NCBI GenBank assembly: GCA_919902235.1
Contig: CAKKQX010000173.1
Coordinates: forward strand, 1 to 35,889
Length of the DNA: 35,889 nt
Source: Burkholderiales bacterium
Lineage (GTDB): Bacteria > Pseudomonadota > Gammaproteobacteria > Burkholderiales > SG8-41
Direction: 5' to 3'
Shown here: positions 31,439 to 35,330 of the stretch, piece after piece
Numbering within the stretch: the first letter of the stretch is position 1
Layout: each line of letters opens with the position of its first letter
The notes under the pieces: model-generated
Databases searched by the model: none
The model's input: the letters and a program-made list of their open reading frames with translations, nothing else
Told to the model about the DNA's origin: nothing
Made by a program: the position numbers and the translations under genes

Positions 31439-31876
31439 GTGAAGAAGACGCTGTTTCCGACCCCCCAGGATGCCGAGGCCGCTTTTTACGAGGCACTCAC
31501 CAAGGGCGATCTCGACGCGATGATGGCGGTGTGGGCTGACGACGACGAAATCTACTGTGTCCACCCTCATGGGGCCCGCATCAGCGGCATGGCGCAAGTA
31601 CGCGAGTCATGGCGGCAGATTTTCAACAGCGGGCAGACACTGCGCTTTCAGCTCCGCGAACAGCAGTATTTGCACGGCATGATGCTGTCCGTGCACAGCG
31701 TCTACGAACATGTCTCGGTGCTGGGCGAGACGAGAACGCGCAATCCGGTGATCGCCACCAATATCTACCTGCGCACCGAACGCGGCTGGCGCATGGTTGC
31801 GCACCACGCATCGCCCGCGCCTGTTGTAGCTGTAGCCGAAGCCGAGCCGCGGCACTCCGCCAAGACCCTGCACTGA
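31439..31876 (+). CDS. NTF2-like/SnoaL-type small protein
   Basis: A 145-residue protein with the NTF2-like cone fold. QDAEAAFYEALTKGDLDAMMAVWADDDEIYCVHPHGARISG (about 8-50) is the family's N-terminal helix pair and strand, and NPVIATNIYLRTERGWRMVAHHASPAP (about 101-127) is the closing beta sheet. No signal peptide. Catalytic or binding role is unknown; family members are isomerases, dehydratases or simple binding proteins. The start is uncertain: GTG 31439 (MKKTLFPTPQDAE) fits the family, while TTG 31391 would overlap waaF. A TAGAAT at 31384-31389 could be its -10 box. I recall this gene after waaF in related genomes, so it probably belongs with waaF rather than with the cluster that follows. 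Confidence 0.82.
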   Translation: MKKTLFPTPQDAEAAFYEALTKGDLDAMMAVWADDDEIYCVHPHGARISGMAQVRESWRQIFNSGQTLRFQLREQQYLHGMMLSVHSVYEHVSVLGETRTRNPVIATNIYLRTERGWRMVAHHASPAPVVAVAEAEPRHSAKTLH

Positions 31877-32073: not shown

Positions 32074-32901
32074 ATGACCCCGCAGACAGAAACTCATTCC
32101 GGATTCCAGCTGCCTCCGCGCGGCGCCAAGCCGCGGCGCCGCGGCATTACTTCCATGATCGATTTCGGCCCCGACGGCTTCGGCTGGACCGGAGGCGCGC
32201 GCGGCATCAGTGATCTGCTCGACGTCGCCGCGGACTACATCGACTACGCCAAGATTTACGCCATGAACGCGCTGTTGATCCCGGAAGCAACGGTCAGGCA
32301 CACTACCCGCCTGTACCTGGATGCCGGTGTCGTGCCTTTCGCCGGCGGCATCCTGTTCGAATATGCCTGGATGCGCAACCAGCTTGCCGACATGATCAGT
32401 CTTCTCAAACGCCTGGGCATTCCGGGCATAGAGATTTCGGAAAATTACGTCACGCTCGACGAAAACGAACGCCACCGGGCAATCGAGCAGCTGCAAAAAG
32501 CGGATTTGCGCGTGGTCTATGAGTTCGGCCGCAAGAATCCCGACCAACCGATGAGTCTTGCCTGCCTCGGTGAAATCGTGAGCGCAGTCGCGCAACACGG
32601 CATTCGCCATGTCACCGTCGAACAGTGCGAGATCGATCTGCTCGCCCGCGACACGCCCGACGCGCTGCTGTCGCTTGCCGCGCAGCCGTGGTTCGACCAC
32701 GTGGTCATCGAAGTGGACCCGTACCGCTTTCCCGAGCAGCACGTGAACATCCTGCGCGACTTCGGTCCGGAGGTGAACCTCGCCAATGTCACGCCCGGAC
32801 AGATTCTGCGCCTCGAGGGTTTTCGCCGCGGCATAGGCAGGGCGGTCAATTACTCCCTGCTGTCCGGCGATGCTTCGCGTCCCGCGGGCATAAGCAGGTA
32901 A
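32074..32901 (+). CDS. ComA-family (phosphosulfolactate synthase-like) TIM-barrel protein
   Basis: A 275-residue member of the phosphosulfolactate synthase family, which in archaea and Bacillus (YitD) condenses sulfite with phosphoenolpyruvate. Family pattern: RRRGITSMIDFG (21-32), DYIDYAKIYAM (54-64), PFAGGILFEYA (88-98), GIEISENYVTL (118-128), YEFGRKNPD (149-157), VTVEQCEID (180-188) and EVNLANVTPGQILRLEGFRRGIG (233-255). Compared with archaeal ComA as I remember it, Lys of the DKG motif is Phe31, KFGWG is KIYAM, and the EGRESG phosphate loop is EQCEID. The fold is therefore clear but the substrate is probably different. ATG 32074 has GAAAG 8 bp ahead; longer in-frame starts have no family similarity. 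First gene of the final cluster. Confidence 0.82.
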   Translation: MTPQTETHSGFQLPPRGAKPRRRGITSMIDFGPDGFGWTGGARGISDLLDVAADYIDYAKIYAMNALLIPEATVRHTTRLYLDAGVVPFAGGILFEYAWMRNQLADMISLLKRLGIPGIEISENYVTLDENERHRAIEQLQKADLRVVYEFGRKNPDQPMSLACLGEIVSAVAQHGIRHVTVEQCEIDLLARDTPDALLSLAAQPWFDHVVIEVDPYRFPEQHVNILRDFGPEVNLANVTPGQILRLEGFRRGIGRAVNYSLLSGDASRPAGISR

Positions 32902-32948: not shown

Positions 32949-34457
32949 ATGAGCACCAACATCTTTGGCAATCCCGACGTTATCGTTGTCGGCGCCGGCA
33001 ATGCCGCCGCCTGCGCCGCGCTTGCCGCACGCGAAAATGGCGCCTCCGTCATCATGCTCGAGGCCGCCCCGGTCGAAGAATGCGGCGGCAACAGCCGCTA
33101 CACGGCCGGCCTCATGCGCGTGGCGTTCAACGGTCTCGATGATCTGGAACAGATCATTCCGGACCTCAGCGAAGCCGAGAAGGAGTCCGACTTCGGCACC
33201 TATACCACCGATCAGTACTTCGACGACATGGGACGCATCACCCAGTACCGCACCGATCCCGATCTGTGCGAGCTGTTGATCACGCGCAGTCATGAAACGC
33301 TGGTGTGGATGCGCAAGAAAGGCGTCAAGTTCATTGCAAGTTTCGGACGGCAGTCGTATAAGGTCGACGGCAAGTTCAAGTTCTGGGGCGGGCTCGCCGC
33401 CGAAACCTGGGGCGGCGGTCCCGGCCTGGTGGAGAACGAGCACAAGGCGTGCGAACGTGAAGGCGTCAGGATTTTTTACGAGACGCCCGCAATCGCCCTC
33501 ATCACCGATGACGACGGCAGGGTGCTTGGCGTAAAGGCAAAGCATAAAGGCAGGAACGTCGAGATTCGCGCCAAGGCGGTGGTGCTCGCCTGCGGCGGTT
33601 TCGAATCCAACGCCGAGATGCGCGCACGCTATTTGGGCCCCGGCTGGGACCTGGCCAAGGTTCGCGGCACGCGCTACAACACCGGTCTTGGCATCGAGAT
33701 GGCGCTCGAAGCCGGTGCCATGCCTTACGGCCACTGGTCGGGCTGCCACGCCGTGGGCTGGGACATGAATGCACCGCCTTTCGGCGACCTCTCCGTCGGC
33801 GACAACTTCCAGAAACACAGCTACCCGTGGGGCATCATGGTCAACGCGCGCGGCGAGCGCTTTGTCGACGAGGGCGCAGACTTCAGGAATTACACGTATG
33901 CCAAGTACGGCGCCGTGATCCTCTCGCAGCCCGGGATGTTCGCCTGGCAGATCTTCGACGCCAAGATCATTCCCGTGCTGCGCGACGAGTACCGCATCAA
34001 GCGGGTGACCAAGGTGAAGGCCGACACCATTGAGGAACTCGTAAGGAAACTCGACGGCGTCGATGCCGAGGCCTGCCTGCGCGAAATCCAGACCTACAAC
34101 AAGGCGGTGCGGACCGACATTCCGTTCAACATGGCGATCAAGGACGGACGCTGCACCAGGGGGCTGAAAATCAACAAGGCCAACTGGGCAAATACCATCG
34201 ACACGCCGCCCTTCGAAGCTTACGCTGTCACCTGCGGCGTGACCTTCAGCTTTGGCGGGGTAAAGATCTCCAACCGGGGCGAAGTCGAGGACACCGCCGG
34301 CAAGCCGATCGCCGGACTGTTCGCGGCCGGCGAGCTGGTGGGTGGCATTTTCTACCATAACTATCCGGGCGGCACGGGACTGACCTCGGGCGCGGTATTC
34401 GGCAAGATCGCCGGCACCGGCGCCGCGGCTTATGTCAAGGTAGAATCGGAGCGGTGA
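32949..34457 (+). CDS. TcuA-like FAD-dependent dehydrogenase (fumarate reductase flavoprotein family)
   Basis: A 502-residue flavoprotein. The FAD Rossmann motif is VIVVGAGNAAACAALAARE (11-29) with E39 at the end of strand 2, then CGGNSRYTAG (45-54). VVLACGGFESNAEMR near 215-229 and the C-terminal GLFAAGELVGG ... HNYPGGTGLTSG (470-481) are the succinate dehydrogenase/fumarate reductase and TcuA signatures. TcuA oxidises tricarballylate to aconitate; related enzymes act on other polycarboxylates or steroids, so the substrate is open. A clear GAAGAGGA ribosome-binding site precedes ATG 32949, 47 bp after the ComA-like gene. No TcuB-type electron-transfer partner is seen. Confidence 0.9.
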   Translation: MSTNIFGNPDVIVVGAGNAAACAALAARENGASVIMLEAAPVEECGGNSRYTAGLMRVAFNGLDDLEQIIPDLSEAEKESDFGTYTTDQYFDDMGRITQYRTDPDLCELLITRSHETLVWMRKKGVKFIASFGRQSYKVDGKFKFWGGLAAETWGGGPGLVENEHKACEREGVRIFYETPAIALITDDDGRVLGVKAKHKGRNVEIRAKAVVLACGGFESNAEMRARYLGPGWDLAKVRGTRYNTGLGIEMALEAGAMPYGHWSGCHAVGWDMNAPPFGDLSVGDNFQKHSYPWGIMVNARGERFVDEGADFRNYTYAKYGAVILSQPGMFAWQIFDAKIIPVLRDEYRIKRVTKVKADTIEELVRKLDGVDAEACLREIQTYNKAVRTDIPFNMAIKDGRCTRGLKINKANWANTIDTPPFEAYAVTCGVTFSFGGVKISNRGEVEDTAGKPIAGLFAAGELVGGIFYHNYPGGTGLTSGAVFGKIAGTGAAAYVKVESER

Positions 34458-34476: not shown

Positions 34477-35253
34477 ATGAACGCACCCGCGATCAAGATC
34501 AACAAGCCGGTTCGCGAACAGGTCAGCAAGGAAGAATGGGAAACGCGCGTCAATCTCGCCGCGTGCTACCGGCTGATGCACGAGTTCGGCATGGTCGAGA
34601 TGGTCGCCAACCACATCTCGGCGCGGGTGCCGGGAACCCACAACGAGTTCCTGATCAACCCCTACGGCATGCTCTACGAGGAAATGACCGCTTCGAGCAT
34701 GATCAGGATCGATGTCGACAGCAATGTGCTCTTCAACGCAACCGAATATGGCGTCAACCAGGCCGGCTACGTGATTCACAGCGCGGTGCACGCCGCGCGC
34801 CACGACGTGGATTGCATCATCCACACCCATACGCTGGCCGGCATGGCGGTATCCGCCATGAAGTGCGGAATCATGCCTGTCGCCCAATCCTCGATGCGCT
34901 TCATCGACATCGCCTATCACGACTACGAGGGCGTGGCGTTGCGGCTCGACGAACGCGAACGTCTGGTGCAAAGCCTCGGCAACCGCGAGGCATTGGTGCT
35001 GCGCAACCACGGCCTGCTCACCGTCGGCCCGAGCATCGCCGAGTGCTTCAACAACATGTTCCGCCTGGAACGTGCCTGCCAGTTGCAGGTAATGGCGCTT
35101 TCCTGCAATACCGAACTGCAGATGCCCCCCGACGAAGTGGTGAAATACACCAACAACAGCATGCTGCCCGGGGTGCGCCGGCGCTTCGGACTGCTCGAGT
35201 GGCCGGCCCTGCTGCGCAAACTCGACCGCACCGACCCGTCCTACCGCGATTGA
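34477..35253 (+). CDS. Class II aldolase/adducin-family protein
   Basis: A 258-residue zinc enzyme of the fuculose-phosphate aldolase/adducin fold. Zinc ligands are H116 and H118 (IIHTHTLAG) and H178 (LRNHGLLTVG). ANHISARVP (about 45-53) is the phosphate/substrate loop, and INPYGMLYEEMTASSM (about 62-77) holds the likely catalytic Glu. The N-terminal ~20 residues are a polar extension. Relatives cleave sugar phosphates or decarboxylate small hydroxy acids, so the reaction is not fixed. It starts 19 bp after the dehydrogenase stop, with GGAGGA just ahead of ATG 34477, and a terminator-like hairpin follows. It belongs to the same operon. Confidence 0.92.
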   Translation: MNAPAIKINKPVREQVSKEEWETRVNLAACYRLMHEFGMVEMVANHISARVPGTHNEFLINPYGMLYEEMTASSMIRIDVDSNVLFNATEYGVNQAGYVIHSAVHAARHDVDCIIHTHTLAGMAVSAMKCGIMPVAQSSMRFIDIAYHDYEGVALRLDERERLVQSLGNREALVLRNHGLLTVGPSIAECFNNMFRLERACQLQVMALSCNTELQMPPDEVVKYTNNSMLPGVRRRFGLLEWPALLRKLDRTDPSYRD

Positions 35254-35258
35254 AACTG

Positions 35259-35330
35259 CGCGAGGCGTGAGGCGCATGCATCGCGCCTTTTTGTTCTTAC
35301 GCCTCACTCCTCACCCCTTACCCCTCACGC
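35259..35330. repeat. Heptamer-unit repeat with inverted arms between aldolase and amidohydrolase genes
   Basis: GTGAGGCG (35267-35274) is inverted as CGCCTCAC (35300-35307). The right arm continues CTCCTCA, CCCCTTA, CCCCTCA to 35327, whose complement gives 7-bp units GTGAGGN / GTAAGGN. This is the third locus with the same plan (GTGAG/GTAAG units, opposed arms) but a different variable base set. Confidence 0.65.
35270..35292 (+). terminator. Candidate rho-independent terminator after the class II aldolase gene
   Basis: The stem AGGCGC (35270-35275) pairs with GCGCCT (35283-35288) across a 7-base loop, followed at once by TTTT. The stem is short but GC-rich. If it works, the amidohydrolase gene would need its own promoter or read-through. 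It shares bases with the left arm of the repeat at 35259-35330. Confidence 0.5.

Follow-up and report, generated by a model that had tools for sequence, protein, structure and literature searches.

A ComA-superfamily TIM barrel with a retained core and rebuilt binding loops, a putative lyase/hydratase encoded beside tricarboxylate-type genes in Proteobacteria

The window (the whole 35,889-nucleotide stretch of DNA that was analyzed) carries on its forward strand a ComA-superfamily gene at 32074–32901, an uninterrupted ATG-to-stop frame of 275 amino acids whose product, P0001, is usually annotated as phosphosulfolactate synthase. A longer frame of 430 amino acids beginning at 31609 was set aside as an upstream extension that homologs do not share. 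Downstream on the same strand lie genes for a TcuA-like FAD-dependent dehydrogenase (32949–34457, with its likely start at 32949 behind an AGGA; 596 bits against NF006130, cutoff 369) and for a class II aldolase/adducin-family protein (AldII) of the NF005451/PRK07044 subfamily (34477–35253; ribosome site GGAGG). The TcuA-like protein scores 264 bits against TIGR02485, below the cutoff of 372.55. An intrinsic-terminator-like hairpin followed by a T run, recognized by pattern match only, is found at 35269–35289 (forward strand), and an amidohydrolase gene (PF04909; 35337–35889, forward strand) is truncated by the end of the contig. The hairpin suggests that the ComA-superfamily, TcuA-like and aldolase genes belong to one transcript and the amidohydrolase gene to another.

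P0001 matches the Pfam ComA family (PF02679) with E = 2e-46 and 158.8 bits (gathering cutoff 25.2 bits), and the match covers the whole domain (profile positions 2–240 of 243); against the equivalog model for archaeal ComA (TIGR03849) it scores 119.2 bits, below the cutoff of 280. Relatives with 49–81% identity to P0001 occur in many Beta- and Alphaproteobacteria, and all relatives found in annotated records carry the name phosphosulfolactate synthase, PGAP being among the annotators. The PDB entries related to P0001 by sequence are 1qwg and 24fo (M. jannaschii ComA), 9cm1 (a designed particle based on M. jannaschii ComA), and 1u83 (YitD of Bacillus subtilis). The AlphaFold2 model of P0001, run with plasmid rows left out, has a pLDDT of 89.5; Foldseek searches with this model place 9cm1, 1qwg (E = 1e-16, TMt 0.80), and 1u83 (TMt 0.83) far above all other structures, which assigns P0001 to the ComA barrel fold.

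ComA of M. jannaschii adds sulfite to phosphoenolpyruvate (PEP) by way of a Mg2+-stabilized enolate, and the Lys/Glu/Asn/Arg core of ComA is thought to stabilize this carboxylate-derived enolate together with Mg2+. To compare residues, 83 family members were aligned, 50 of which were kept at <80% identity, and 13 rows of the P0001 clade were set against 16 canonical rows with R-E at positions 170–171 (canonical residues are given in the numbering of M. jannaschii ComA, Mj). Twenty-five positions are conserved in both groups (G14, T16, D20, G22, D40, K43, G74, G75, E79, E103, S105, E133, G135, K137, G161, E168, E171, E205, G220, N227, R240, G242, and a few others), and the family-invariant core (K43, E79, E103, E133, K137, E168, E171, E205, N227, and R240) is fully retained in the P0001 clade. 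M. jannaschii ComA (1qwg, TIGR03849) thus shares with P0001 the TIM barrel and these 25 positions; the two proteins are about 25% identical, and R170, S172, G173, G177, P207, Q212, R244, and T247 are replaced in P0001. R170, S172, G173, P207, Q212, R244, and T247 are 88–100% conserved in the canonical clade and replaced in the P0001 clade as a whole. Seven positions are conserved within each group but differ between them (canonical/clade: T76/I, G107/N, G173/D, P207/D, Q212/H, R244/G, and T247/V); R170, S172, and G177 are among those conserved in canonical rows only, while 35 positions are conserved in the P0001 clade only, including (P0001 numbering) P33, D34, G37, W38, Y62, N65, Y125, F151, H179, Q184, W206, F207, Q243, R256, and Y260.

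Unlike M. jannaschii ComA, the P0001 clade has an extra loop after β-strand 1, an insertion at about residues 33–43 (PDGFGWTGGAR; 32170–32202) that contains the invariant P33, D34, G37, and W38 and is absent from 16 of 16 canonical rows. Codons 60–65 (KIYAMN; 32251–32268) encode K60, the equivalent of the invariant Mj K43, along with Y62 and N65, which are invariant in the P0001 clade only. The canonical E-x-R-E-S-G loop is replaced by EQCEID (codons 183–188; 32620–32637), with loss of R170, S172, and G173; this loop is not wholly lost in the clade, as E168 and E171 persist. EVDPYRFPEQH (codons 213–223; 32710–32742) takes the place of the canonical EAPxKxxQ, E205 being kept and P207 and Q212 lost, and RRGIGRAVNY (codons 251–260; 32824–32853) takes that of RxGLRxDT, R240 being kept, R244 and T247 lost, and R256 and Y260 newly invariant. 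The E-x-R-E-S-G loop, the EAP motif, and the R-x-[DE]-[TS] tail, as found in Mj ComA and XcbB1, are replaced throughout the P0001 clade. As judged from the alignment, the catalytic core of the clade is retained and its predicted substrate-side binding loops are rebuilt.

A sequence-only reading of this locus had listed four motif differences from archaeal ComA (DKG/DFG, KFGWG/KIYAM, EGRESG/EQCEID, and EAPQKSQQ/EVDPYRFPEQ), which agree letter for letter with 1qwg, and its statement that residues nearly invariant in the canonical group are lost is supported by the clade alignment. Its description of an altered active site applies to the binding loops but not to the invariant core; it had named the persistence of catalytic and phosphate-binding residues as evidence against its view, and one half of this is found, the acid/base and carboxylate core being kept. 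The argument it drew from loss of the Lys of DKG (Mj K21) does not hold, since this position varies among canonical rows (K, N, T, or S) and both invariant Lys residues (K43 and K137) are present in the clade. In YitD of B. subtilis, which has the same fold, the Lys is likewise replaced (DNG); unlike P0001, YitD keeps RESG, EAPNK, and RSDT. Two features had escaped the sequence-only reading: the insertion with P33, D34, G37, and W38, and the change of the C-terminal R-x-D-T to G-R-A-V-x-Y. Overall, its observation is confirmed and its interpretation partly supported.

The P0001 clade, whose stem is long (1.14 substitutions per site), was recovered with support of 100/100, as the prediction of a separate clade would have it, and lies outside the canonical clade of MjComA, YitD, and XcbB1-type enzymes (support 97/91); a topology uniting the P0001 and canonical groups in one clade was disfavored, though not firmly rejected, by the AU test (p-AU 0.073). 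Several further ComA-family clades also lack R-E-S-G, so that altered loops recur across the superfamily. Pseudogene formation or decay was rejected, 60 columns being invariant across 20 diverse clade members, and the substituted motifs are not random decay because they are conserved clade-wide at 48–81% identity.

Two enzymes are known to use phosphosulfolactate as the next step: ComB in the archaeal and Bacillus route, and XcbC in the bacterial coenzyme M route (PMC8727900). ComB (PF04029) was found in none of 20 genomes bearing the P0001 clade, and XcbC (NF052535) scored above its cutoff in 0 of the same 20; both counts include the genome of the window, which is 87% complete. In G079 and G536, both canonical, PF04029 comes immediately after ComA, and in G405 and G1147, likewise canonical, NF052535 is the immediate neighbor of ComA; in G162, the NF052535 copy beside ComA scores 570 bits, just below the cutoff of 575. 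No ComB-, ComC- or ComDE-type neighbors were seen beside P0001-clade genes. XcbB1 of Xanthobacter Py2 (Xaut_5052, L078) is bacterial and belongs to the same Pfam family as P0001, but it keeps RESG and adjoins fumarate-lyase-family genes of coenzyme M synthesis. The absence of ComB and XcbC from these genomes and the catabolic context of the clade's genes support the earlier claim that P0001 does a different job.

In the lineage of the window, the ComA-family gene lies downstream of yhdP-glnE-ilvE-heptosyltransferase-SnoaL, the order ComA-TcuA-AldII is kept with 5–60 bp between genes, and the class II aldolase is 88–91% identical across sister loci; an amidohydrolase gene is additional in L004, L020, and the window. 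The Salmonella tcuRABC system for tricarballylate catabolism is not known to include a ComA-like gene, an aldolase, or PrpF. Salmonella TcuA converts tricarballylate to cis-aconitate according to a passage of PMC10468695 that cites Lewis and Escalante-Semerena (2006). The TcuA-like neighbor of P0001 is a distant paralog below the TIGR02485 cutoff; the congener locus L020 has in the same slot a true, equivalog-level TcuA (passing both NF006130 and TIGR02485) together with TcuB, and no branch in the TcuA tree is deeper than the one between the TcuA proteins of L020 and the window. The presence of either of these highly dissimilar TcuA types at one and the same position suggests that the locus requires an activity like that of tricarballylate dehydrogenase. 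Strict joint inheritance of the gene with a single TcuA lineage was rejected, as the label requires at least two changes, and six on the best tree; these changes indicate replacement by an unrelated TcuA type. Elsewhere, orthologs of the window TcuA are partnered with AldII, an amidohydrolase, or a 4-oxalomesaconate tautomerase scoring above its cutoff.

Other loci of the clade associate the gene with further families. The order PrpD-PrpF-ComA, with 13–42 bp between genes, is found in L024, L076 (a Bradyrhizobium plasmid), and L098, the last two of which also have TcuA and an ABC importer; in L077 (Paracoccus pTAV3), TcuA and ABC genes lie downstream of ComA, and in L026 (Alcaligenaceae) PrpF, PrpD, TcuA, and TcuB all lie within 8 kb. 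Strict linkage to TcuA was rejected because no TcuA lies beside the gene in genera g224 and g231. In g224 (L022, L100, L101, and L104), the gene remains at the glnE-ilvE-heptosyltransferase core locus, which TcuA and the aldolase gene have left, and a TcuA ortholog with 72–75% identity is encoded elsewhere in the genomes; in g231, a sulfatase gene with an intact CVPTR motif lies 21–33 bp from the ComA-family gene (4 of 4 loci examined), and some species have TcuA-aldolase-amidohydrolase or TcuA-aldolase-4-oxalomesaconate-tautomerase modules elsewhere in the genome. The earlier expectation of TcuA-like and aldolase genes as constant neighbors is therefore wrong in general: it is borne out in the window's own lineage and fails in g224, where neither is nearby, and in g231, where a sulfatase is found instead.

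Taken together, the retained core, the replacement of near-invariant positions, the lack of ComB and XcbC, and the operons of tricarboxylate type speak for another addition or elimination reaction on a carboxylate substrate. The odds lean slightly toward P0001 being a ComA-superfamily TIM barrel other than a phosphosulfolactate synthase, a putative lyase/hydratase that would convert a tricarboxylate-like substrate by enolate chemistry. The fuller reading, to which we give a probability of roughly 0.5, is that P0001 is a phosphate-free lyase/hydratase whose substrate is of the tricarboxylate type and which serves, alongside TcuA-like, aldolase, PrpF, and PrpD partners, a catabolic pathway not described before, and that its clade is one of several ComA-like clades recruited to catabolism and all annotated as phosphosulfolactate synthase. 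Its parts differ in strength: loss of PEP/sulfite specificity in the clade is very likely; a polycarboxylate substrate is mildly favored, the substrate call being weak because the TcuA, AldII, PrpF, and PrpD families are broad; and the hydratase/lyase direction is a tentative assignment. The operons of the clade probably break down tricarboxylic acids. With the superfamily Lys/Glu/Asn/Arg core kept and the loops that are invariant in canonical enzymes rebuilt, the enzyme would carry out addition or elimination on the carbon adjacent to one of the carboxylate groups in a tricarboxylate-like substrate; the TcuA-like flavoprotein would make or use a C=C bond, and the other partners would be, depending on lineage, a class II aldolase, a PrpF-type isomerase, a PrpD-type hydratase, or an amidohydrolase. 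A literature search found no paper on the P0001 clade or on ComA homologs in PrpF/TcuA operons.

The main rival to a tricarboxylate lyase/hydratase is a C-S lyase that runs ComA chemistry in reverse, removing sulfite from a sulfonated (poly)carboxylate (e.g., a sulfosuccinate-like compound) in organosulfur catabolism. The proximity of the g231 gene to its CVPTR sulfatase gene fits this, as do an SsuA-like binding protein of the L098 importer (145 bits, cutoff 163.5), the occurrence of sulfatase, TauD, and SsuABC-like genes beside other ComA-like clades, and the nearest match of the amidohydrolase, 4-sulfomuconolactone hydrolase; however, a full-length relative of the window amidohydrolase reaches only 208 bits against that model (cutoff 500), no model for a sulfur function exceeds its curated cutoff, the sulfur-type families concerned are broad, and apart from the weakly matching amidohydrolase the window operon and its sister loci are devoid of sulfur genes, all of which makes a C-S lyase unlikely. 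Less likely again is a retro-aldolase or C-C lyase that would cleave a C6-C7 tricarboxylate, for example 4-carboxy-4-hydroxy-2-oxoadipate, to give pyruvate or oxaloacetate by way of the keto-acid enolate: magnesium-enolate chemistry suits such a reaction, orthologous TcuA modules include a 4-oxalomesaconate tautomerase above cutoff, and HpaI-type aldolases are among the weak Foldseek matches, but matches outside ComA stay at the generic TIM-barrel level and the window operon already has a class II aldolase. That P0001 is a genuine phosphosulfolactate synthase whose loops are unusual, supplying sulfolactate or another sulfonate, would agree with the fold, the invariant core, and the PGAP name of the relatives, but is very improbable given the TIGR03849 score, the replaced canonical residues, and the 0 of 20 genomes with ComB or XcbC above cutoff.

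If the P0001 clade has another function, then in many Proteobacteria both the name phosphosulfolactate synthase and the predictions of coenzyme M or sulfolactate metabolism that follow from it are mistaken. The usual database name of P0001 is probably wrong, the protein having been annotated with the name of its superfamily, and P0001 is a variant within a known superfamily that probably catalyzes a new reaction. The operons offer a concrete entry to that reaction and probably to a new tricarboxylate or sulfo-carboxylate pathway; a kept core with rebuilt binding loops would cleanly illustrate how an enolate-stabilizing barrel can acquire new chemistry.

Further members of the superfamily were seen in other settings. 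The genome of the window has two more ComA-family genes, belonging to other clades and both without R-E-S-G (G000:C236:23443-24165, L044:9390-10232; and G000:C296:16014-16724, L045:8948-9763); one adjoins a CSPNR-motif sulfatase gene and a gene for a TctC-type binding protein, and the other adjoins two genes for TauD-family dioxygenases. Alphaproteobacterial loci (L107:8800-18992 and L118–L121) have a conserved operon for a GntR regulator, a ComA-like protein, an SsuA-like binding protein and ABC importer, TauD (not found in the L120 copy), a DUF3604 protein, and a CVPAR sulfatase, and their ComA-like clade is another tied to organosulfur-type genes. A ComA-like clade with an ELPGPW motif (L109, L114, L115, and L116) occurs with one or two CxPxR-motif sulfatases and TctC-type binding proteins. 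The clade of L034, L035, L036, and L086, with TEIRGPYY and ESEGIT motifs and no R-E-S-G, is possibly related to plant HSA32. On one Rhodospirillales contig, two ComA-family genes of different clades (L025:5618-6421 and L025:8102-8896) are separated by about 1.7 kb, with a PGA_cap-family gene between them on the opposite strand. On a Legionella lytica plasmid (L085:2841-5753), a canonical RESG-type ComA domain forms the end of a 970-amino-acid protein, and ComB is encoded directly after it.
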